The notes below the pieces were generated by a model. It ran no database searches. It worked only from the letters and a program-made list of their open reading frames with translations, and was not told the origin of the DNA. Shown here piece after piece: positions 6,846 through 20,489 of a DNA stretch of 21,361 bases; position 1 is the first letter of the stretch; every line of letters begins with the position of its first letter. The stretch is taken from positions 1 through 21,361 of IMG/VR virus record IMGVR_UViG_3300048597_000187; one strand, written 5' to 3'. Both the position numbers and the translations under genes were made by a program. Source of the DNA: a virus.

Positions 6846-7484
6846 ATGGAACTGACCCACACACTGATCTGCCAGCGGGCGCTGACCGCCATCGGCGCGA
6901 GGCCCATCCGCGACATCAACGAGGACACGGAGCGCGCCCGCGCCTGCAAGCACGCCTATGACACCATGCTTGACGCGCTGCTCGATGCGCGGCGCTGGTC
7001 GTTCGCGTATCGGCTTTACCGCCTGAGCCAGATCAACGCGCCCGCACCTCCCGGCTGGCTCTATAGTTACCAGCTGCCCGCTGCCCGCATCGGCGCGCCG
7101 CGTGTCGTCTATGACCGGGCCGAACTTGACCGGCCCATCGACACCTATGAGCTGGCCGGCGGTTCGCTTCTCGCCAACGCGCCGCAGGTGTGGGCGCGCT
7201 GCCTCACGCGCCCGGAGCCTCGCGACTGGACAGGCGGCTTCGTGCAGCTTGCCGTCACCGCCATCGCCGCCGCTCTCGCCATGCCGGTGCGCCGCGCAGC
7301 CGGCCTCCAGGAGCGGTTGCTGGTCGAAGCCTTCGGCACCAACGCCAGCATGGGGCGCGGCGGGCTGTTCAAGCTGGCGGCGGACGCCGATTTCGCGGCT
7401 GAACCCGACAGCGACCTGCCCGCCGGGCGGGCGCTGCTGGGGCGCACCGCGCCAGCCGACGAACCGCCGAGCTACCGGTTCTGA
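6846..7484 (+). CDS. Tail tubular protein A / adaptor (T7 gp11 type)
   Basis: The adaptor ring joins the portal to the nozzle of the short tail. The 212-residue protein has the family layout: LTHTLICQRALTAIGARPI at 3-21, an acidic turn, an Ala/Arg helix with ACKHAYDTMLDALLDA at about 33-48, then RRWSFAYRLYRLSQ (about 49-62) and GWLYSYQLPAARI (about 70-82). These correspond to the N-terminal helix bundle and the W-S-F-A and Y-x-Y-x-LP signatures of gp11-like proteins. The C-terminal Pro-rich tail is variable in the family. Its stop is followed one base later by the start of the nozzle gene, so the two are likely made in a coupled way. Confidence 0.92.
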   Translation: MELTHTLICQRALTAIGARPIRDINEDTERARACKHAYDTMLDALLDARRWSFAYRLYRLSQINAPAPPGWLYSYQLPAARIGAPRVVYDRAELDRPIDTYELAGGSLLANAPQVWARCLTRPEPRDWTGGFVQLAVTAIAAALAMPVRRAAGLQERLLVEAFGTNASMGRGGLFKLAADADFAAEPDSDLPAGRALLGRTAPADEPPSYRF

Positions 7485-7485
7485 C

Positions 7486-9636
7486 ATGCCTTCCCAGACC
7501 ATCACGCAAAGCTCCTTCACCGCAGGCGAGATCGATCCCCGGCTGGCGCGCCGTGACGATGTGAAGCCGTTCTACATCTCCGCATCGCGGATGCTGAACT
7601 TCATACCGCTGCCTTTCGGCGGCTGGGAGCGGCGCGGCGGCACGCGGCATGGCGCATGGCTCCGCCCGGTGCTGAACGAGGTCACATATGGGGCCGGCGA
7701 TGTCGTGCTTTCGGGGATGATTTCCGGCACGGCGTCCAACCTCAACGACAACAATCTGGCGACGGGGCTGATTTTCGCCGCCCCCGCGCTCAACGCCGTG
7801 CCGATCCTGATCGACCTGCAATCGGTTCGCGCCGTCGCGGCGCTCGACGTGATCAACCTGTCCTGCGCCGCCGGCGGCGGCGTCGACCAGATCGAGGCGC
7901 AGGTCTCGCCCGACCTGGTGACATGGACGCCGTTGCATGACCGCAAGGACATCGGCACGACGCAGCGCACGCGACGGTTCGCCAGCGAGGCGCGCGGCGC
8001 GCTGCCGGTGCGTTATGTGAGGCTCCAGATCGTCGGCGTCGCCATCGCGGGAACCTTTGCGCTCGCCGGCCTGCGGCTCTGGGAGGAGAGCGCGCTATCT
8101 TCGCCCTGCAAGCTCATGTCGTTCTCGCCAGAGGAGGGTGTGCATTACCATCTGGCGGTCACGGTCGGGAACATCGACATCTTCCGCAACAGCGTGCGGG
8201 TCGCGAGCGTGCCGGTTCCCTATGCCGCCGGCCAGATCGCGGCGCTGACCGTGGCGCAGGATTTCGACACCTTCGTGATCTTCCACCCCGATGTGGTGCC
8301 CTTCGTCCTGTTCAGGCAGGGCAGCGACGGCGAATGGGATGCGCGTGACGCCGCGTTCTCGAATGTGCCGACCGAGAGCTTCAATGGAGGCGCTGCGGAG
8401 CCGATCATGTCAGCGTCGCGGGGCTGGCCCTCATGCGGCGCATTCTTCCAAAGCCGGCTGGTCATCGCAGGGCTGCGCTCACGAGCCGCGACCCTGCTGA
8501 TCTCGGTGCTCGGCTCACCCTACAATTTCAACACCGCCGGCACGCTCGCCACCGACGCCATCCGCGCCGACATCGACGGCGACGAATCCGAATCGCCCCG
8601 CATCGTCAGGGTGCGCGGTGGGCGCAAGCTCGAAATCTACGCCACCAACGCATTCTATTTCCTGTCCAACTCGGTCATCGCCAAGGGCGAAGCCTTCGGC
8701 ATCACGCAGGCGCACCGCACCGGAGCGGCGCGCGGGCCGCGTGTGGTCGATCTCGACGGCGCGTCGCTCTATGTCCAGGCGGGCGGGCAGGTGCTGCGCG
8801 AGCTGGTCTATGACGACGCCGAGCAGAACTACCGCGCCAACCCGATCTCCACCCTGTCCTCGCATCTCATCAAGAACCCGGTCGATCTGGCCAAGCGCAG
8901 GTCCACCTCCACCACCGACGCCGATCTGATCTACATGCCGCTCGCCGATGGCACGGTGACGGCGCTTTCGACATTGCGCGCCCAGGAAGTGACCGGCTTC
9001 GCCGCCCTCGATTTCGGCGGGCGCGTCAGCGCATGTTCGGTGAGCGGCGACAACCAGATCGCGCTGGCGGTGGAGAGGGGCGGTTCGGGCCGCATCGAAT
9101 TCTGCGACGACGCCCTGCTGCTCGATGGCGCGGTGACACGCACGCTCGCGCCGGCCAGCGCGACTGTCACAGGCCTCTCGCACCTGAACGGCCTGAGTGT
9201 CTATGCCATCGCGGACGGAACACCGCTGGGACCATTCACCGTCGCCGCTGGCGCCATCGCCCTCGACCGGCTGGCGACGCAGGTCGAGGTCGGCGTCTGG
9301 ACGCCGGGCCGGTTCCGTATGCACCGCGCCAGCGGCACCGGCGACGCCAAGATTCCGCAGGATGCATTCATCGACGTGCCTGTGGTCACGATCCAGTGCG
9401 ATGGCTGCGGCCCCTTCCGCGCCCGCGTCGATGGGGGAGAGTGGCAGGAATGCTGGCCGGAGCCGCTGCCGCTCACGCTCGACAAGCCGCTCGCCGAACG
9501 GCTGTTCGCCGGGGCTGTCGAGATCGACGGCTTCCTCCTAGACGACTCGCCGTCCGCCAACGGTCAATTGGAACTTGAGCAAATTCTGCCGGCGCGGTTC
9601 CGCGTGCTGGCGGTCACGCGCTACGTCATCTTTTGA
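7486..9636 (+). CDS. Tail tubular protein B / tail nozzle, with inserted domain
   Basis: The nozzle forms the distal tube of the short tail and the gate for DNA. The ATG at 7486 gives 716 residues; a longer reading from 7102 lies inside the adaptor gene and is rejected. The N-terminus has the family signature FTAGEIDPRLARRDD (11-25), RMLNFIPLPFGGWERRGGTR (35-54). The usual continuation with SPCKLMSFS (206-214), VPYAAGQIAALTVAQDFDTFVIFHP (244-268) then appears. Between them, at about 62-205, is an extra region with SNLNDNNLATG (84-94), a VSPDLVTWTPLHD motif (140-152) and VRYVRLQIVG (175-184), which looks like a discoidin (F5/8 type C) beta-sandwich. The C-terminal half continues the beta-propeller-like nozzle fold. 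A surface-binding role for the extra domain is an inference. Confidence 0.9.
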   Translation: MPSQTITQSSFTAGEIDPRLARRDDVKPFYISASRMLNFIPLPFGGWERRGGTRHGAWLRPVLNEVTYGAGDVVLSGMISGTASNLNDNNLATGLIFAAPALNAVPILIDLQSVRAVAALDVINLSCAAGGGVDQIEAQVSPDLVTWTPLHDRKDIGTTQRTRRFASEARGALPVRYVRLQIVGVAIAGTFALAGLRLWEESALSSPCKLMSFSPEEGVHYHLAVTVGNIDIFRNSVRVASVPVPYAAGQIAALTVAQDFDTFVIFHPDVVPFVLFRQGSDGEWDARDAAFSNVPTESFNGGAAEPIMSASRGWPSCGAFFQSRLVIAGLRSRAATLLISVLGSPYNFNTAGTLATDAIRADIDGDESESPRIVRVRGGRKLEIYATNAFYFLSNSVIAKGEAFGITQAHRTGAARGPRVVDLDGASLYVQAGGQVLRELVYDDAEQNYRANPISTLSSHLIKNPVDLAKRRSTSTTDADLIYMPLADGTVTALSTLRAQEVTGFAALDFGGRVSACSVSGDNQIALAVERGGSGRIEFCDDALLLDGAVTRTLAPASATVTGLSHLNGLSVYAIADGTPLGPFTVAAGAIALDRLATQVEVGVWTPGRFRMHRASGTGDAKIPQDAFIDVPVVTIQCDGCGPFRARVDGGEWQECWPEPLPLTLDKPLAERLFAGAVEIDGFLLDDSPSANGQLELEQILPARFRVLAVTRYVIF

Positions 9637-9648
9637 AAGGGGCCTCCC

Positions 9649-10308
9649 ATGGCTGAACTCGTTGTCGGAGCGATCACGGCGCTGTCGAGCGTCGCAAGCA
9701 CGGTCGCGACCACCGTGGGTTCCACCGTGGCCACGGTGGGCACCGCCCTGACCGGGACGACCGTTGCTTCCGGCGGCGTCATTCCCACCATCATGAGCGG
9801 CCTCGGCATGGTCGGCACGGTGGGGTCTCTGGCCCTTTCGGTGATGCAGGGCGGCGCGACCGCCTTCCAGGCGTCCAGCCAGCTTTCGGCGGGCAAGCGC
9901 GCCATGTCGTCGGGCATGGAGCAATTCCAGTATGATCAGGCGCGGGCCTCGAATGAGGAGCTTTCCGGCGAACAGAAGATCGGCGACCTCAAGGCAAAGC
10001 TCGCGCGTGACCAGGCCAACATGATGGTGGCCCATGCCGCGTCCGGCCTCGACGTGTCGGCGGGCGAACCGGTGGACGCCGCGCGCCGCGCGGAGGACGA
10101 CACCAACCGCCAGATAGACGTGGAGCGCAGCAATGCCTCTCTCCGGGCCTATGCCCGACGACGCGCGGCGAAGCAGGCGCTGAACGCCGGCTTCGCCGCG
10201 CGGGAGGCGGCGGGCGTGCAGGCAGCCGGCTCCGTGGCGAAATGGGCCATCCAGGACATAGCCCGTGGCACGGTGAAGCCCTCGCAGAACCCGATGGAGG
10301 AGGAGTGA
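9649..10308 (+). CDS. Internal virion / ejection protein (T7 gp14 type)
   Basis: The protein is stored in the head core and ejected at infection to help build a channel through the outer membrane. It has 219 residues with a hydrophobic Ala/Val/Thr-rich first 70 residues carrying possible membrane-active segments. A helical region follows, with ASGLDVSAGEPVDAA at 131-145 and DDTNRQIDVERSNASLRAYA at about 150-169. The 'S/A-SGLDVxxGxPVD' pattern and the following helix are typical of podovirus gp14-like core proteins. An AAAGGGG ribosome site precedes the ATG. Its stop overlaps the next start as TGATG. Confidence 0.87.
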   Translation: MAELVVGAITALSSVASTVATTVGSTVATVGTALTGTTVASGGVIPTIMSGLGMVGTVGSLALSVMQGGATAFQASSQLSAGKRAMSSGMEQFQYDQARASNEELSGEQKIGDLKAKLARDQANMMVAHAASGLDVSAGEPVDAARRAEDDTNRQIDVERSNASLRAYARRRAAKQALNAGFAAREAAGVQAAGSVAKWAIQDIARGTVKPSQNPMEEE

Positions 10309-12578
10309 TGGCCAACCTCAACCGCCAGGCCGTCGCGCCGGGCTGGAAGCCGGCGGCAGGCGGAGAGAGGGACACGCGCGCCCTGCCGGACATGTCGGCG
10401 GACAATTCATGGTCAAAGGTCGCCACCGTCGAGGCATCGGTGTTCGGCGAGATCGCGACGCAGATCGGCGCATGGGCCGACAAGGCCACGGTGCAGGAGG
10501 CGCAGCGGATCGGCATGGCGGATGGCGAGGCCGGCGAGATCAGGCCGCAGCGCAACGCCACGCTGGCCGGCCAAGCCTATGACCAGACGGCCTTCAAGAC
10601 CTTCGCCACGCAGGTCGAGGGCCGGATGCGCGAGGACGGCCAGAAGGCCTATCTCCAGCACAGCCAGGACCCGCAGGCGCTGAATGCGGCGCTCGGCGCG
10701 ATCAAATCGAAATACGCGGATGAACTCAGCGATCATGTCGAGGTGCGCGTGCCCGTCATGGAGAGCTGGCAGCGCAGCTCCGGGGCCTATGTCTTCCAGG
10801 CGCAGCGCGACTTCAACGAAAAGCAGCGCAGCGAGGCGCGGCAGACGGCGCTCATCGATCTCACCGAACGCCAGAACGACCTGCACCGGCGCGGCGTCTT
10901 CGGCGCGGGCGACCCGTCCAACCCGAAACGGATCACCGCCGATCTGGAGGAGTTCGACCGCAGGGTCGATGAGAACCCCGATCTGTCGCCGGGCCAGCGT
11001 TACAAGCTCAAGGGCGAGGCGAGGACGCGGGCGAGCGAGGGCATGGTCTATGGGGCCATAGAGACCGCGAAAACTCCGGCCGATCTCGACCGGCTGGAGA
11101 CCAAGCTTTCGGAGGCCTACCGATCGAAGCAGGGCGTCGGCAAGCTGATGACGCCCGACGCCTTTGAACGTGCGACGGCAGCCATCGAAACCCGCCGCAA
11201 CAAGATGGCCCAACAGCAGACCCGCTCCGTCTCCGCCGTCTCAGGCGCGCTCGATGAGGTGATCAAATCAGAAACCTCGGGGATCGCCGTCACCAATGAG
11301 CGCTTCAACGAGGTGCTGGTCGCGGCGACCGGCGTGGATGATCCGGCATCCGGCATCGACCAGAAGGTGGCGGCGGCGCGGCGCGCGCGCACCGAACGCG
11401 AACGGCTCTATGGCGCGCCTTCCGGGGTGCGCGCATCGATCATCTCGGAGCTGACCAACAAGGAGAGCCGCGACGGGCTTTCGGGCGATGAACAACTGAG
11501 GCTTTCGACCGCCCGCAATATCGAGGCGCGATTCCAGAAATATGCGAAGGAAGACCCGGTGGCCGGCGGCGAGGCCTTCTCCGGCGTCAAGATCGCCGAT
11601 CTGCCCTTCGACGGCGAGCCGGACAAGCTGGCGGCGGCGGCGCGAGACCGGGTGAGCGCGGCGCAGATGAACAGCCGGTTCTTCGGGTTCGAGACGCGCT
11701 ATCTCAAGAACGCCGAGCGCGACCGGCTGCGCGAGCTGGCCCGCACCGATCCTGAAAAAGCGGTGGTGGTGGCCAAGGCGGTGTCGGACGCCTTCGGGGA
11801 ACGCGGTGGCGCGGTGCTGCGCGAGCTGGGCGACGATCTGCCGGTGGCGGCGACGGCGATCAACTCCGGCAACAGCCGCCTGATCGGCGACGTGACGGCT
11901 GCGGCGGCGCGCCAGAAGGCCGGGCTGAAGGACGCAAGACCCTCGGAACGCGACGTGCGCGCCGTCCTGGCGGAACAGAAGCTCGATGTGCTGTTCACCG
12001 ACCGCCCCGGCGAATTGAAGAGGTTCACCGAGACGGTCGGCACGGCGGTGTCGCAGCGGCTTGGCGGCGTCAAGGATTTCGACCTCAACGACCCGGCACA
12101 CAAGAAACTGGTACGCGAGGCCTTCGACGACGCGCTTGGCCGCAAGGTGGTGATGGGGCGCGAATATGGCGGCGCGGCCCGCATCAACGGCCATATGACC
12201 GTCGCGCCATCGACGGTGCCGCGCGACGATTTCGGGACGGTGATCGCGCTCATCAACGACGCCGATCTGGCGGCGGTGAACCTCAAGCCGACGCTGGGCG
12301 GCAAGCCGGCGCAGATGCGCGACCTTCGCGAGGCGCGGTGGGTGCCCATCGGCGGCGACCGCTACCGGCTGGCGCTGGGCGACCCGGCGCGCGGCTTCGC
12401 GCAATATGTCGCCGCAGGCGGAGCCATCGACGCCCCGATGGGGCTGGCCGACAGGCCCCTTGAGATCGACCTGTCGGAAGGCTCGCCGCTGACGATCCGC
12501 CTGACCGAACGCCTGCCCCGGCTGTTTGCGCCAGGGCAGCGCCACCGGCCCACGGTCACCGGAAAGAAGCCGGAATGA
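10308..12578 (+). CDS. Internal virion / ejection protein (gp15-like position)
   Basis: The 756-residue protein follows the gp14-type gene, where T7 has gp15. It is mostly helical and highly charged, rich in Ala, Arg, Glu and Asp, with no signal peptide, membrane segment or clear catalytic motif. The N-terminal region MANLNRQAVAPGW and the following SVFGEIATQIGAWADKA (about 43-59) recall the start of other podovirus core proteins. A beta-rich C-terminal part (from about 620) includes RINGHMTVAPSTVPRDDF and RYRLALGDPARGFAQYV. The TGATG overlap with the preceding gene favours ATG 10308 over upstream starts. Role is inferred from position, size and composition. Confidence 0.78.
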   Translation: MANLNRQAVAPGWKPAAGGERDTRALPDMSADNSWSKVATVEASVFGEIATQIGAWADKATVQEAQRIGMADGEAGEIRPQRNATLAGQAYDQTAFKTFATQVEGRMREDGQKAYLQHSQDPQALNAALGAIKSKYADELSDHVEVRVPVMESWQRSSGAYVFQAQRDFNEKQRSEARQTALIDLTERQNDLHRRGVFGAGDPSNPKRITADLEEFDRRVDENPDLSPGQRYKLKGEARTRASEGMVYGAIETAKTPADLDRLETKLSEAYRSKQGVGKLMTPDAFERATAAIETRRNKMAQQQTRSVSAVSGALDEVIKSETSGIAVTNERFNEVLVAATGVDDPASGIDQKVAAARRARTERERLYGAPSGVRASIISELTNKESRDGLSGDEQLRLSTARNIEARFQKYAKEDPVAGGEAFSGVKIADLPFDGEPDKLAAAARDRVSAAQMNSRFFGFETRYLKNAERDRLRELARTDPEKAVVVAKAVSDAFGERGGAVLRELGDDLPVAATAINSGNSRLIGDVTAAAARQKAGLKDARPSERDVRAVLAEQKLDVLFTDRPGELKRFTETVGTAVSQRLGGVKDFDLNDPAHKKLVREAFDDALGRKVVMGREYGGAARINGHMTVAPSTVPRDDFGTVIALINDADLAAVNLKPTLGGKPAQMRDLREARWVPIGGDRYRLALGDPARGFAQYVAAGGAIDAPMGLADRPLEIDLSEGSPLTIRLTERLPRLFAPGQRHRPTVTGKKPE

Positions 12579-15500
12579 GCGGCTTCAGCTTTCTCGATCC
12601 CGACACCGGCCCGCAGGATCTTGCGCAAGGCGGCACGCCCGGCTTCGGCGAGCTGGCCGACGCCTCCTATGAGCAGGCCCGCCTGATCGGCAATGTCGGC
12701 GGGCGCGACGAGCAGATGGCGCGCGCCTACGAGGCCCGCAACGCCCGCATCAAGCAGGCCTTCGGCGTGGCGCTGCCCAATCCGGTGAGGGACTGGCACA
12801 GCTTCGACCCCGCGACGGAACGGGGCCGCGTGGGGCGCCTGCCTGAAAACTCCTCGCAGGCCCGCAGCGACATGCTGGACTGGTATCAGCGCAAGACCGC
12901 GATGCTGGCGGCGCAGAACCCCGACCGCTACCGCGCGCTGGCCCTGGACAAGCCCGCCGACATCGAGGCGGACGAGATCGCACAGGCCGCCATCGCGCGG
13001 GGCAACGAGCTGGCCTCGCGAACGACCGGCACGGTGATGCCGATGATCGCCAGCCTGTGGGGAGGCCTCAAGGCGTCGCCCTTCGATCCGGTCAACGTCG
13101 CGACGCTGCCGCTGGGCGGCGGCGGGCGCACGGTGCTGATGCGCGTGTTCTCGGCGGCGGCGGCGAACGCCGGGACGGAACTGGCCTCGGCTCCGCTCAC
13201 CGCCACGCAGAAGCGCGAGGCGGGCATGGAGACGGGCATCGGAGAAACCGCCAAGGACATGGCCGTCGCCGGCGTGTTCGGCGGGGGCGTGCAAGGCGCT
13301 GGCGAGGCGCTGGCGGCTGGCCTCCGGCGCGGAGGACGGGCGCTGACGCCGGAACAGAAGATCGTCCAGGCGGCGCAGGCTGACCCGGCGAAGTTCCGCG
13401 CCGCCATGGCCGGCGACGACAAGGCGCTCGCCGACATCGCCCGCTCCGTGGCGGGCGAGCGGGACGATGTGCGCGGCGCGGCGACGGTGATGCGGCAGGA
13501 AGCCGCCCTTGAGGCGCGCCGCCCGGCGAATGTCGATGCCGCCGAACATGTGCGAGCCGTCGATGACGCCACGCGCTATCTCGATGACCCGCACGCATCC
13601 GCGCCGGTGATCCCGCAGCCCGTGCCGGAGCGGGCGGCGACCCGCGTGGCCGACACCTTCGCCGATCTGCCGGAGCCGCAGCCGGGCCAGCGGCTCATGC
13701 TCGATGGCCGGCCCTATGACAAGCGAAGCCTTGATCCGCGCGCGCTCGGCTTCGAGGCGGACACGTTCCAATACAAGCTGGGGGGAGATGCGCGCGGGGT
13801 GCGCAACGATCTGGCCAGCGTGGACAAATGGGACGCAATGGCGGCGCAGGCCGTGATGGCCTTCGAGCGCAAGGATGGGCGGCTGTTGGTCGCGGATGGC
13901 CACCAGCGCACCGGCCTCGCGACAAGGCTGCTGGCGGAGGGCAAGGAGAAGGCGATAGGCCTCGACGCCTTCGTGTTCCGCGAGGCCGATGGCTGGACGC
14001 CATCGGAAGTGAGGGCGCTGGCCGCGCGCCGCAACCTGCAACAGCGGACGGGCGACCCGACCGATACGGCTGTCGCCATCCGCGACATGCCGCAGATTCT
14101 CGACAGGACCGTGGCGCGCGGATCGGAGCACATGCGCGTCGCGCAGGGGCTGGCGCGCCTCACGCCAGAGGTCTTCCAGATGGTGCGCGGCGGGGCGCTG
14201 CCGCAGGCCCATGGCCAGCTCATCGGCTGGAAGGTGCCGCAAGGCCCGCGACAGGCGGCGGCGGCGGATGCGCTGATCCGCACCGGCATCAAGGGCACGG
14301 AATCCGTCGCGGCCTTCCTCGACCAGATCAACGCCCTGGAGACGCGCGCAGGCGGCGAGATCGCCGACCTGTTCGGCGAGGCGAGCGTCGCCCGCAGCCT
14401 GGCCGTGGAGGTGGCGGAGCTGCTGCCCCGCGTCGCCAAGGCGCTGAAATCGGACAAGAGCGCCTTCGCCCGCGTCAATGGCGCAGCCGAGGCGCTTGCG
14501 AGCGAAGGCAACGTCATCGCGCGGGAGGCGAACGCTGCGAGGGCGGAAGCCAGCGGGGCGGGCGCGGTGCTGGTCCAGAAGCTGGCCACGGTCGATGGGC
14601 CGGTGCGCGACATCATCCTGGACGGCGCGCGCCGCATCGCCAATGGCGAGAAGCCCGGCAAGATCGCCGATCACGTCTCCAGCGAGATCGCGGGGCTGGT
14701 GAAGGAGCGCGGGGCCAATGCCCTGCTTCCGCGCGCCACCCGAACCATCGACGGGGTGCAGGCGCTCAGCCCCAGGCTTGACGCGCCCGCCGGGCCGGAC
14801 GCCGTGCGGCAGGTGGATGACCTCATGCGAGACGCCATGCGCCAGCCCACGGAAGCGCCGCTGAGACTTGAGCGGACGACGTTGGCAAAAGCCTTCGGCG
14901 ATGACGTCACAGGCTTTCCACTGTTGGGGAAGCAGCAATATCAGTTCAATAACGAGGTTGTGTTCAATATTCGACAGGATCAACGCCTTGTCGGATATGC
15001 GCTCGTTGACCCGCCGCCATCTGATGGCGTTGCCACCATTCGGGCGATCCGCAGTGTCGGAGAGACCCCTATGTCATTCGGGACGGTTGCCACCCGCAGC
15101 CTAGTCGGCGAGATCAAGCGCGAATTTCCAGATGCAAAAGCTATCACAGGCTTCCGCCAAACAGGCGCACGCCAGCTGAGCAGCGCAGATGGCCAAGGCG
15201 GGCGCGCAATCTTGTGGTTCGATGCGGACGCCAAAGCGGCCAATGCTCGTGCTGAACTGGAATGGTTGGCGCGTGAGTCACAAATAAAAATGGAGGCCGA
15301 CGCCCCAGAAGCGCCGCGCGAGCGGCAAGCGCCGCAACAGGCGGCATCCGACACCGCGCCAGCCCGCGCCGCCGAAGCGCCCGCGCCGGATGGGATGCGT
15401 TTAAACGCCGACTCTGGCGACGGCCAAGCCTCGCTTCTCGACATGGTTCCGGGGGAAGACACGGGCCGGATGGAGGACGGGCTGAAAGCCGGCTCCGGCG

Positions 15501-15595
15501 CATTGCGCAGCCGGGAGGATGTGCTTGCCGAAATCCGCCGTCTCGACGAACGCGAGACTGTCATCACCGCCTGCATCGGGGGGAGCGCGCCATGA
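12575..15595 (+). CDS. Large ejection protein with ParB-like domain
   Basis: The 1006-residue protein starts in an ATGA overlap. The first third looks like an ejection protein: a charged helix, then a Gly/Ala-rich hydrophobic part at about 150-250 with PFDPVNVATLPLGGGGR near 169-185. At about 375-480 is a ParB-like region, with YDKRSLDPRALGF at 381-393 and DGRLLVADGHQRTGLATRLL at about 434-453, where ADGHQRTGLA matches the ParB G-H-x-R-x-x-A core; Asp441, His443 and Arg445 are the key residues. A helical stretch follows to about 610. Residues 763-907 form a separate lower-GC domain containing FPDAKAITGFRQTGAR. The last 100 residues are disordered and Ala/Pro-rich. The ParB-like domain may be the DdrB-like type found in polyvalent phage proteins, which are injected to counter host functions; that is an inference. 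Confidence 0.8.
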   Translation: MSGFSFLDPDTGPQDLAQGGTPGFGELADASYEQARLIGNVGGRDEQMARAYEARNARIKQAFGVALPNPVRDWHSFDPATERGRVGRLPENSSQARSDMLDWYQRKTAMLAAQNPDRYRALALDKPADIEADEIAQAAIARGNELASRTTGTVMPMIASLWGGLKASPFDPVNVATLPLGGGGRTVLMRVFSAAAANAGTELASAPLTATQKREAGMETGIGETAKDMAVAGVFGGGVQGAGEALAAGLRRGGRALTPEQKIVQAAQADPAKFRAAMAGDDKALADIARSVAGERDDVRGAATVMRQEAALEARRPANVDAAEHVRAVDDATRYLDDPHASAPVIPQPVPERAATRVADTFADLPEPQPGQRLMLDGRPYDKRSLDPRALGFEADTFQYKLGGDARGVRNDLASVDKWDAMAAQAVMAFERKDGRLLVADGHQRTGLATRLLAEGKEKAIGLDAFVFREADGWTPSEVRALAARRNLQQRTGDPTDTAVAIRDMPQILDRTVARGSEHMRVAQGLARLTPEVFQMVRGGALPQAHGQLIGWKVPQGPRQAAAADALIRTGIKGTESVAAFLDQINALETRAGGEIADLFGEASVARSLAVEVAELLPRVAKALKSDKSAFARVNGAAEALASEGNVIAREANAARAEASGAGAVLVQKLATVDGPVRDIILDGARRIANGEKPGKIADHVSSEIAGLVKERGANALLPRATRTIDGVQALSPRLDAPAGPDAVRQVDDLMRDAMRQPTEAPLRLERTTLAKAFGDDVTGFPLLGKQQYQFNNEVVFNIRQDQRLVGYALVDPPPSDGVATIRAIRSVGETPMSFGTVATRSLVGEIKREFPDAKAITGFRQTGARQLSSADGQGGRAILWFDADAKAANARAELEWLARESQIKMEADAPEAPRERQAPQQAASDTAPARAAEAPAPDGMRLNADSGDGQASLLDMVPGEDTGRMEDGLKAGSGALRSREDVLAEIRRLDERETVITACIGGSAP

Positions 15596-18063
15596 GCATC
15601 CGGGACTGCATCATCCGTGCCGGCGAGGCCGGCGAGCTGACCAAGGCCGAAGTCTCGGAGCTGGTGAAGCGCCATGACGAGCTGGCCGGCGAACACCGGC
15701 TGGCGCTGGGCGACGCCGGCGCGACAAGCGACATCGCGCGCCGGATGATCGAGGAACAGAAGGCCGAAAAGGTGCTGCGCCAGCGGCGCGAACTCTTGCA
15801 GCTCAAGGCCTCCGACATGATCCGCGCCGATCTCGCCAAGGCGCGGAGCGAAGGTCTCCCCATGTCGCAGGCGGCGATCCTGCTTCTTGAGAGCTATGGC
15901 GAGGCCCCGTTCAAAAGCGCCGTCGGAGGCCAGCGCGCCATCCTCAGCCTCGCGCGGGCCAAGCTGGAGGGATTGCTCAACGAATTCGAGCGCCACTGGC
16001 TGACCGGCGGCACGCCGAACCGCGCGCTTCTGGACGATGTGGTGCGCGAGGCCCATGGCCAGGACACGGGCAGCGCAAGGGCCAAGGCGCTGGCGCAAAG
16101 CTGGCTGACGGTGGCGGAGGATTTGCGTCTTCGCTTCAACGCCGCCGGCGGCTCCATCGCCAGGCTTGACAGCTGGGGCATGTCGCACAGCCATGATCCG
16201 GCGGCGCTGTTCAACGCCGGCTTCAAGGCATGGAAGGACTTCATCGCCCCGCGCCTCGACCGGGCGAAGATGCTGCATCCCCTGACAGGCCAGGCCTTCA
16301 CGGATGCCGGCTTCGACGGAATGCTGCGCCGTGTCTATGACCGCATCACCACGAATGGCGATGTGGACCTGACGCCCTCGCGCGCGCCGCAGGGCGGCTC
16401 GCTGGCGACGCGGCACGCCGACCATCGGTTCCTGCAATTCAAGAGCGCGGACGACTGGCTGGCCTATGACAACGCCTTCGGTCGGGGCAACGCCTTCGCC
16501 GCGATGATGGACCATGTGAACACCTTCTCCCGCGACATCGCGCTGATGGAACGGCTGGGTCCCAACCCGGCATCGACCATAAGGTGGCTGCAACAGGTGG
16601 TGGACGAAGACCGCGCCAAGGGCGTTGTTGCGGGCAATGGCGCTGTGGCGCGCCTGAGCGGGGTAGGCGATTCCCATCTGCTGGGCCGTGTCTATGAGGA
16701 TGTGTCCGGCGCGGCCTTCGTGCCGGTCGATGCGCGGATCGCCGCCGGATTCTCGATGCTGCGCGGCTTCCATACGGCCACGAAGCTTTCGGGCGCAGTT
16801 CTGTCATCCGTGACCGACATCGGCACAAACACCCTGGCGCGCGAGTTCGCCGGCCTCTCCGGCACGCCGCTGGTTTCGGCCTTCGCCGACACGATCAAGG
16901 CGCTCGGCCCCGGCGACCGTCAGCTGGCGCTGCAAGCGGGGCTGGCGGTGGAGCGCGCGCTGACCGTTTTCAACCGGGAGGCCTCGCACCTCGCGACCTT
17001 CGACGGGCCGATGTGGTCGCAATGGCTGGCCGACCGGACGCTGGGCCTCTCCGGCCTCACCGCCTTCACGCGCGCCGGGCGGGAAGGCTTCGGCCTCGCC
17101 TTCCTGCGCGAGCTGGCCGGGCATCGCGGCGTCGAATTCCGCGCCCTGCCGGAGAAGATCAGGGCCGGTTTTGAGCGCTACGGCTTCGACGAAAGCCTGT
17201 GGAACCGCTACCGCCAGACGCCGGTCAAGGACGGCATCATCCGCCCCATCGACGTTGAGGCGGCGGGCGAGCGCGAGGCGGCTGAAGGGCTTCTCAGCAT
17301 GGTGCTGATGGAGACCGAATTCGCCGTGCCGGCTTCGGTGCACCGCGTGCGCGCCGGCGAAAACATGATCGGCGTCGAGACGAATGCGCAGCGCGGCACC
17401 GTGGGCGGCGAACTCTGGCGCTCGATGTTCCAGTTCAAGAGCTACGCGCTGATGGTGTCCAAGCTTCAGGCGATCCGCGCGGGACAGGTCTCGGCGATGA
17501 CCGGCGAGCGCTGGAAGGGCGGCGCTTACTTCGCAGGCTTCATGCTGACGGCGACGCTGCTGGGCGGCATGGCGGTGCAGCTCAAGGACATGTCGCGTGG
17601 CAAGGACCCGCGCGACATGAGCGACTGGAAGTTCTGGATGGAGGCGATGTTCCAGGGCGGCGGGCTTGGCATCATGGGCGATTTCGTCCGCTCCGAGACC
17701 AACCGCTTCGACAACGGGCTGGCGACGACGCTGGCGGGGCCGCTGGCCGGCTCAATCTCGCAGATCGTCGATGCGACGGCGACGCCCCTGCTGGACATGG
17801 CGAAGGGCAAGAACCCGAATGTCGGGCGCAAGGTCGCGAATGTCGTGAGCCAGAACACGCCCCTGCTGCCCTTCTACCTGCGCACGGGCTATGAGCGCGC
17901 CGTGATCGACCGGCTGCGCTGGGCCATCGATCCGCAGGCGGCGCGCGGCTTCTCGGATCAGGTCAAACGGCTGCGCAAGGAGCACAACCAGGAGTTCTTC
18001 TGGTCGCCCGGCGAGGCCGCGCCGGGCCGCGCGCCTGACATGGGAGCCGCTTTCGGCCCGTGA
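15592..18063 (+). CDS. Large ejection protein (gp16-like position)
   Basis: The 823-residue protein starts in an ATGA overlap with the ParB-containing gene and is the last core protein before the tail fibre, the position of T7 gp16. Helical, charged regions alternate with amphipathic and hydrophobic segments: GFSMLRGFHTATKLSGAVLSS at about 387-407, and a membrane-like segment GGAYFAGFMLTATLLGGMAV at about 643-662. The motif RSMFQFKSYALMVSKLQ (about 611-627) and the ending FFWSPGEAAPGRAPDMGAA occur in large ejection proteins of podoviruses. No lytic transglycosylase motif (E-S-x(n)-GLMQ) is visible, so peptidoglycan cutting, if any, must come from elsewhere. It probably forms the part of the ejection channel in the inner membrane. 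Confidence 0.8.
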   Translation: MSIRDCIIRAGEAGELTKAEVSELVKRHDELAGEHRLALGDAGATSDIARRMIEEQKAEKVLRQRRELLQLKASDMIRADLAKARSEGLPMSQAAILLLESYGEAPFKSAVGGQRAILSLARAKLEGLLNEFERHWLTGGTPNRALLDDVVREAHGQDTGSARAKALAQSWLTVAEDLRLRFNAAGGSIARLDSWGMSHSHDPAALFNAGFKAWKDFIAPRLDRAKMLHPLTGQAFTDAGFDGMLRRVYDRITTNGDVDLTPSRAPQGGSLATRHADHRFLQFKSADDWLAYDNAFGRGNAFAAMMDHVNTFSRDIALMERLGPNPASTIRWLQQVVDEDRAKGVVAGNGAVARLSGVGDSHLLGRVYEDVSGAAFVPVDARIAAGFSMLRGFHTATKLSGAVLSSVTDIGTNTLAREFAGLSGTPLVSAFADTIKALGPGDRQLALQAGLAVERALTVFNREASHLATFDGPMWSQWLADRTLGLSGLTAFTRAGREGFGLAFLRELAGHRGVEFRALPEKIRAGFERYGFDESLWNRYRQTPVKDGIIRPIDVEAAGEREAAEGLLSMVLMETEFAVPASVHRVRAGENMIGVETNAQRGTVGGELWRSMFQFKSYALMVSKLQAIRAGQVSAMTGERWKGGAYFAGFMLTATLLGGMAVQLKDMSRGKDPRDMSDWKFWMEAMFQGGGLGIMGDFVRSETNRFDNGLATTLAGPLAGSISQIVDATATPLLDMAKGKNPNVGRKVANVVSQNTPLLPFYLRTGYERAVIDRLRWAIDPQAARGFSDQVKRLRKEHNQEFFWSPGEAAPGRAPDMGAAFGP

Positions 18064-19958: not shown

Positions 19959-20489
19959 ATGATGCCCAAGCAATCTGATGTGCTGGCCTATCGCTCGGTC
20001 TATGGAGACCCGCGCCGCAAGGGCAATGTGTCCGTGGTCTCACCCTCCTGGTATGCGGGAAGCATGACGCGGCTGGCGGTGCCGTTCCGCATGACCTATG
20101 CGGGCCAGCCGCTCAAGGGGCTGATGTTCCACAAGGATGCGGCCCCGCATTTTGCCAGGCTGTTCCAGCTGTTGCTCGATGAGGCCAAGGGCAAGCAGGC
20201 AACGCTCGACCATTGGGGCGTCTCGATCACCGGCGGCTCTTTCAACTACCGCCTGATGCGCGGACTGAACACGCTGTCGATGCACAGTTTCGGATGCGCA
20301 CTCGATCTTGACCCCGTGCGCAACGGGCTGGGCGACGCCAGCCCGCGCTTTGCCGAGTTTCCCGAAGTCATGAGGGCCTTCCGCGCCTCCGGTCTGTGCT
20401 GGGGCGGCGACTGGGACGGCGACGGCTCCCGTGCCGACCAGCGCCGCCATGACGGTATGCACCTGCAAGCCACAGCACCCATCCAGTGA
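19959..20489 (+). CDS. Endolysin, M15-type zinc peptidase
   Basis: This is the probable cell-wall hydrolase that cuts peptide bonds in peptidoglycan (L-alanyl-D-glutamate or D-Ala-D-Ala type) at the end of infection. The 176-residue protein carries the M15 motif SMHSFGCALDLDP (107-119), with zinc ligands His109 and Asp116, and the second part GLCWGGDWDGDG (145-156) then HDGMHLQ (164-170), with likely catalytic Asp165 and ligand His168. There is no signal peptide, so export needs the holin. A GAGGTGA site precedes ATG ATG at 19959/19962, and either could be used. It opens the lysis cassette. Confidence 0.92.
   Translation: MMPKQSDVLAYRSVYGDPRRKGNVSVVSPSWYAGSMTRLAVPFRMTYAGQPLKGLMFHKDAAPHFARLFQLLLDEAKGKQATLDHWGVSITGGSFNYRLMRGLNTLSMHSFGCALDLDPVRNGLGDASPRFAEFPEVMRAFRASGLCWGGDWDGDGSRADQRRHDGMHLQATAPIQ

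Follow-up and report, generated by a model that had tools for sequence, protein, structure and literature searches.

The nucleotide pocket of Caulobacter ParB has been mutated residue by residue, and the positions concerned matter for CTP binding or hydrolysis (PMC8367383). According to a survey from 2025, the nucleotide bound by a ParB fold can be CTP, ATP or GTP and is not predictable from the sequence (PMC12704722). As for large proteins that phages inject, the N4-type virion RNA polymerases (vRNAPs) were reported to be cysteine-free, a feature that the authors connected with passage through the tail into the cell (PMC3915230, PMC2784036). Here we describe a 1006-aa podovirus protein in which a preliminary description had placed a ParB-like domain inside a virion ejection protein.

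Operon organisation and the gp16-position protein

The stretch of DNA analysed (the window, a viral record of 21,361 bases) contains a podovirus head and tail operon, whose gene products were assigned through PHROGs as a portal-type head-tail adaptor, a major head protein, tail proteins, an internal virion protein and a phrog_684 virion protein; no RNA families or tRNAs were found in the window. Four genes on its plus strand are considered here: those of a gp14-like internal virion protein (9649..10308; phrog_418, 'internal virion protein'), a gp15-like internal virion protein (10308..12578; assigned by synteny, cysteine counts and a start codon in the sequence), the 1006-aa protein (12575..15595; an open reading frame in synteny with podovirus internal-protein operons) and its partner, an 823-aa virion protein (15592..18063; phrog_684, E 2e-137). 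The start at 10308 (MANLNRQ) is the likelier one for the gp15-like gene, and lies inside a 10242-12578 ORF. A gp12-like ORF (7102-9636), whose product has a weak match to the F5/8 type C domain, overlaps the upstream ORF at 6846-7484; the gene therefore probably begins downstream of the GTG at 7102. The probable endolysin is a peptidase M15 (D-alanyl-D-alanine carboxypeptidase-like) encoded at 19959-20489, after the tail fibre gene.

The gene order gp12-gp14-gp15-gp16, looked for as the mark of a gp16-like ejection protein, was found in the window, and nearly all relatives with enough flanking sequence had the order gp12, gp14, gp15, slot and phrog_684, the slot being the gene position of the 1006-aa protein. 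Synteny, together with the cysteine depletion and cargo swapping described below, suggests that the slot protein is probably delivered into the cell. We propose that the window protein is a gp16-position internal virion protein that would act as a modular injected carrier, in which a cargo region lies between an N-terminal scaffold and a C-terminal tail for attachment.

The slot proteins were modular, as they had a common N-terminal scaffold, then a ParB-like, DdrB-ParB, Zeta-toxin or ADP-ribosyltransferase module, and then a common tail. The scaffold of the window protein (aa 24-337, 12644..13585) was helical in the AlphaFold2 (AF2) model, and blastp/HMM linked it to slot proteins that have the ParB-like module, to others that lack it and to one with a PF18763 module. 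Related ParB-like fusions were found in other phages and prophages. When the search was made from phrog_684, the ParB-like module with its DGHQR motif was present in 60 of the 74 slot proteins encoded upstream; one of the other 14 is incomplete, and slot proteins without DGHQR could have a Zeta-toxin or ART-PolyVal match, or a region without assignment. The C-terminal regions ranged from ~50 to >2600 aa and carried Zeta toxin (11/40) and ART-PolyVal (6/40) as well as helicase, RelA/SpoT, MuF_C and PBECR1 modules. The fusions expected of polyvalent proteins were thus found at the level of the family (Zeta toxin, ART-PolyVal, helicase, LPD and other domains), and the slot architecture fits the polyvalent-protein concept (PMC5512222).

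Apart from 42 aa with a weak match to an N4-like vRNAP, that of Sulfitobacter phage EE36phi1, no homologue was detectable for the C-terminal region that is unique to the window protein (aa 727-976, 14753..15502), and the AF2 model of this region was not confident; visual inspection had suggested a GNAT-like reading of it, which found no confirmation. In Ruegeria phage 45A6, inspection by eye had pointed to LPD38 as the equivalent of phrog_684, but Pfam gave no match to phrog_684.

Lone cysteines of the slot protein and its partner

Cysteine was nearly absent from the internal proteins of the window: the gp14-like and gp15-like proteins had none, the slot protein had one near its end (C1000, TGC 15572-15574, in the common C-terminal tail helix at 15503..15592) and the phrog_684 protein had one near its start (C6, TGC 15607-15609). 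The relatives showed the same distribution, with no cysteine in 65 of 69 gp15 proteins, exactly one in 109 of 122 slot proteins (a cysteine within the last 12 residues in 115/122, with 0.13 per 1000 residues outside the tail) and exactly one in 59 of 66 phrog_684 proteins, usually at positions 2-9. Both gp15 and gp16 of T7 had no cysteine. The depletion speaks for gp15, the slot protein and phrog_684 being ejected. The gp14-like proteins of T7 (L234), phiV10 (p17, L235) and YeP5 (L239) begin with Met-Cys and have no other cysteine.

Among the loci found through the ParB domain, the tail cysteine was present in 54/54 with a separate phrog_684 gene, versus 0/7 without one (nominal Fisher 2e-9, from a table that ignores shared ancestry). 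One of these seven (L070) is a slot-phrog_684 fusion that is free of cysteine, and the IRDCI of phrog_684 reads IRDLI in it. Two seeming exceptions to the partner cysteine (L218 and L222) had it in the correct frame (MSDLLVCIANG), and one locus (L048) looks frameshifted. The pair was also present in 12 further records, from distant phages, in most of which the slot protein has no sequence relationship to the ParB module: phiV10, VP2, BcepC6B, Tr60_Ab31, YeP5, SI2, Skadi-3, Acinetobacter MD-2021a, Vibrio 1.182.O, vB_EcoM_APEC and two faecal phage records, in one of which (L241) the phrog_684 start is uncertain. The annotated phrog_684 start of vB_EcoM_APEC (MT664721, L245:5561-5780) is ~70 codons too late, and an upstream GTG restores the conserved cysteine-bearing N-terminus.

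One lone cysteine in each protein, at the ends that face each other, suggests that the injected proteins are stapled together. Judged from the sequences, the residual pair would be best explained by a single disulfide linking the slot protein, at its C-terminus, to the N-terminal end of the partner, a bond that would be dispensable in a single chain; the carrier of the window would then probably be joined head-to-tail to phrog_684 (C1000 to C6), in a set of proteins otherwise almost free of cysteine. Disulfides form poorly in the reducing cytoplasm, and the bond would therefore have to form after lysis. No published report of such a slot-phrog_684 disulfide was found in open-access text.

It is quite possible, if on balance doubtful, that the two cysteines are not bonded to each other and instead form two homodimers, bind a metal or mark a site of processing, because the evidence for the pair is one of co-occurrence only. 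However, the tail cysteine tracks a separate phrog_684 and is absent otherwise, and the fusion has lost both cysteines. Homodimers are disfavoured because they would predict neither this pattern nor the loss in the fusion, and a metal site is opposed by the lack of any further cysteine in either protein.

A disulfide between slot protein and partner would allow a broader, tentative reading, to which we give slightly less than an even chance: in the phrog_684 lineage (epsilon15-like phages and many marine podoviruses) the two proteins may constitute a split ejection polyprotein held by a single disulfide, whose cargo, a ParB-like clamp, a toxin-like kinase or an ADP-ribosyltransferase, would leave the virion as one train and be set free once in the reducing cytoplasm. 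The lone-cysteine pair would offer a simple and cheap handle on how podoviruses keep their internal proteins together for ejection, and also a sequence rule to recognise injected carriers and cargo.

The DGHQR module and its predicted fold

The ParB-like motif VADGHQRTGLA, from which the domain had first been proposed, is in frame in the 1006-aa protein (aa 439-449, 13889-13921, plus strand), and the numbering given for D441, H443 and R445 was correct. No relatives came from single-sequence searches of genome and viral collections, whereas an alignment-based search did find them; in one such scan the domain was encoded at 80 viral loci and at 6 loci in bacterial genomes. It occurs within a 3912-aa polyvalent protein of Ruegeria phage 45A6 and within a 792-aa protein of Dunaliella viridis virus SI2. 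The D441-G-H-Q-R445 motif (13895..13909) was identical in 56/56 non-redundant relatives, which were 25-38% identical to the window protein over 366 residues, indicating that it is no chance match. Q399 and N487 were likewise unvarying in the 56 sequences, and K401 was kept in 55 of them.

Profile searches gave little for the ParB-like region. No Pfam family was found at a meaningful score in the window protein or in the 56 relatives; PF02195 (ParB_N) had no match in the window at E<=1 and was absent among the matches listed for the relatives. NCBIfam gave no match to the region, nor did PDB sequences, HMMER included, and the sole PHROG over it was phrog_10691 (E 6.6e-31), a function-unknown family of 3925 positions. 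Pfam matches of the window protein to Acetyltransf_1 and DUF1015 were sub-threshold and inconsistent.

The ParB fold suggested by the motif was borne out by structure prediction. AF2 modelled aa 361-726 with a pLDDT of 90.2, using the 56-sequence alignment as input, and Foldseek placed the model on ParB, Noc, Spo0J and KorB, with an N-domain plus an HTH domain. These four proteins made up the first 23 matches in the PDB (best E ~1e-4, probability 0.99-1.00), with alignments of 208-226 columns, and were followed by pNOB8 ParB-N and, more weakly, by sulfiredoxin (Srx). The isolated ParB DNA-binding domain 6s6h was matched separately, and the full-length model gave the same matches. The nearest viral models were those of large, uncharacterised proteins of phages (E ~1e-19); phage proteins annotated as ParB came next. 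When the profiles were compared with hhalign, the family aligned with a diverse ParB alignment over 137 collinear columns (P=0.0007; reversed ParB controls 0.6-0.8). With 31 canonical alphaproteobacterial ParBs the register was the same and the similarity weak (P=0.007; global mode fails), and for this reason the diverse set was needed.

In this register DGHQRxxLA falls on GERRxxA (P-motif 2), A-x-K-N falls on the E-N of ENxxR, and the next helices fall on the ParB HTH. The N-domain comprises aa 373-490 (13691..14044; pLDDT ~90), and contains a GxxR-type active-site motif with a conserved Arg (DGHQR, 56/56). The helical region after the core, which had been likened to that of ParB, matched the ParB HTH/M domain in the predicted structure (aa 495-590, 14057..14344). 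DNA binding is uncertain, because HTH helix 2 appears short and there is no net positive charge on the HTH region. A further helical extension (aa 591-720, 14345..14734), conserved in the alignment of relatives and confidently modelled as helices, has no known counterpart. According to these models the window module is a ParB/sulfiredoxin superfamily fold, and the domain appears closer to the canonical ParB/Noc architecture of N-domain plus HTH than to the DdrB-like one.

The preliminary description had, in fact, expected the domain to be DdrB-like. This label was rejected because PF18763 had no match and the hhalign comparison with five PF18763 proteins showed no similarity in register (P=0.12, out of register and the same as the reversed control). 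PF18763 (ddrB-ParB) did occur in the same operon slot of sister prophages in Pleomorphomonas koreensis (L112:15332-18541) and Salipiger marinus (L114:6632-10360, minus strand), implying that a single slot exchanges two distinct ParB-superfamily modules.

The ParB nucleotide site around D441, H443 and R445 was only partly kept. Relative to Caulobacter ParB, the family kept R104 (R445) and N136 (N487), as well as Q58 (Q399) and, conservatively as Lys, R60 (K401), the register of these last two coming from a low-posterior part of the global alignment. E102 and R103 were replaced by the invariant H443 and Q444, the position of E135 was mostly Lys (K/R) and that of R139 mostly Glu (E/Q), so the full canonical P-motifs (Q58, R60, E102, R103, R104, E135, N136 and R139) were not present. 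NTP binding with an altered chemistry is plausible; the chemistry should differ from that of CTPase ParB because the Glu linked to hydrolysis is His and several phosphate contacts have changed. The ParA-binding motif LG[KR]GL was absent from the 1006-aa protein, and no ParA-type Walker A was matched in the window.

Role of the module and comparison with known systems

Starting from the computed fold, motif invariance, synteny, module exchange and cysteine pattern, we infer ejection, NTP binding, DNA binding and the disulfide, and propose, with about even confidence, that the window protein is an injected modular carrier with an NTP-binding, DNA-engaging ParB module, disulfide-joined to phrog_684. 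The main cargo would be a divergent ParB fold made of the N-domain plus the HTH/M-like region. After ejection this module would most likely bind NTP and engage DNA in an NTP-regulated manner, the entering phage genome being the most plausible target.

The module could also be an injected enzyme acting against the host or its defences, as an NTP-regulated nuclease or nucleotidase. Its relatives are fused to Zeta toxin, ART, RelA/SpoT and helicase, typical of conflict proteins, and ParB-fold nucleases and NTPases have been reported, with such a role proposed for the DdrB-like ParB of polyvalent proteins (PMC5512222). The window domain, however, is not DdrB-like and has retained the HTH portion found in DNA-binding ParBs, and we consider this enzyme unlikely. 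It is rather improbable, too, that the domain lacks catalysis and serves only in the structure or assembly of the internal core, which would be consistent with the changes in several ParB nucleotide contacts, with a protein encoded in a virion operon and with the absence of the module from about one fifth of the slot proteins. However, Q399, D441-R445 and N487 do not vary at all in the 56 divergent sequences, which exceeds the needs of a fold and therefore marks a functional site, and slot proteins without the module can bear other effectors. That the GHxRxxA match is coincidental, with no ParB domain, fits the lack of Pfam and PDB sequence matches, but is ruled out, unless the model is wrong, by the confident model, whose top PDB matches were all ParB-like, and by the invariant motif, leaving it a very slight chance.

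The module adds a ParB-fold clade, situated in proteins that are probably injected by phages and probably missed by surveys based on PF02195 such as the 2025 census (PMC12704722).

Compared with canonical ParB, Noc, Spo0J and KorB, the module shares the predicted fold over ~210-226 columns, the order of N-domain and HTH, and Q58, R104 and N136, with R60 as Lys; it differs in having DGHQR for GERR and changes at E135 and R139, in lacking the ParA-binding motif and detection by PF02195, and in forming part of an internal virion protein of a phage. Like the PF18763 DdrB-like ParB (DdrB of phage P1), it is a ParB/Srx superfamily domain in phage late-operon proteins, and the two occupy the same slot in sister prophages, whereas the window module has an HTH/M region, DGHQR instead of GNGR and no profile similarity to PF18763. 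The gp16-like ejection proteins (T7 gp16; phiV10/epsilon15) share the gene order, and the epsilon15-like ones also share the single cysteine near the C-terminus; in contrast, the window protein has a ParB module and T7 gp16 is one long chain free of cysteine. The N4 virion RNA polymerase is, like the window protein, whose injection is inferred, very large and selected against cysteine, but N4-type vRNAPs have no cysteine at all, whereas the slot protein of the window keeps exactly one, at the end that faces its partner.
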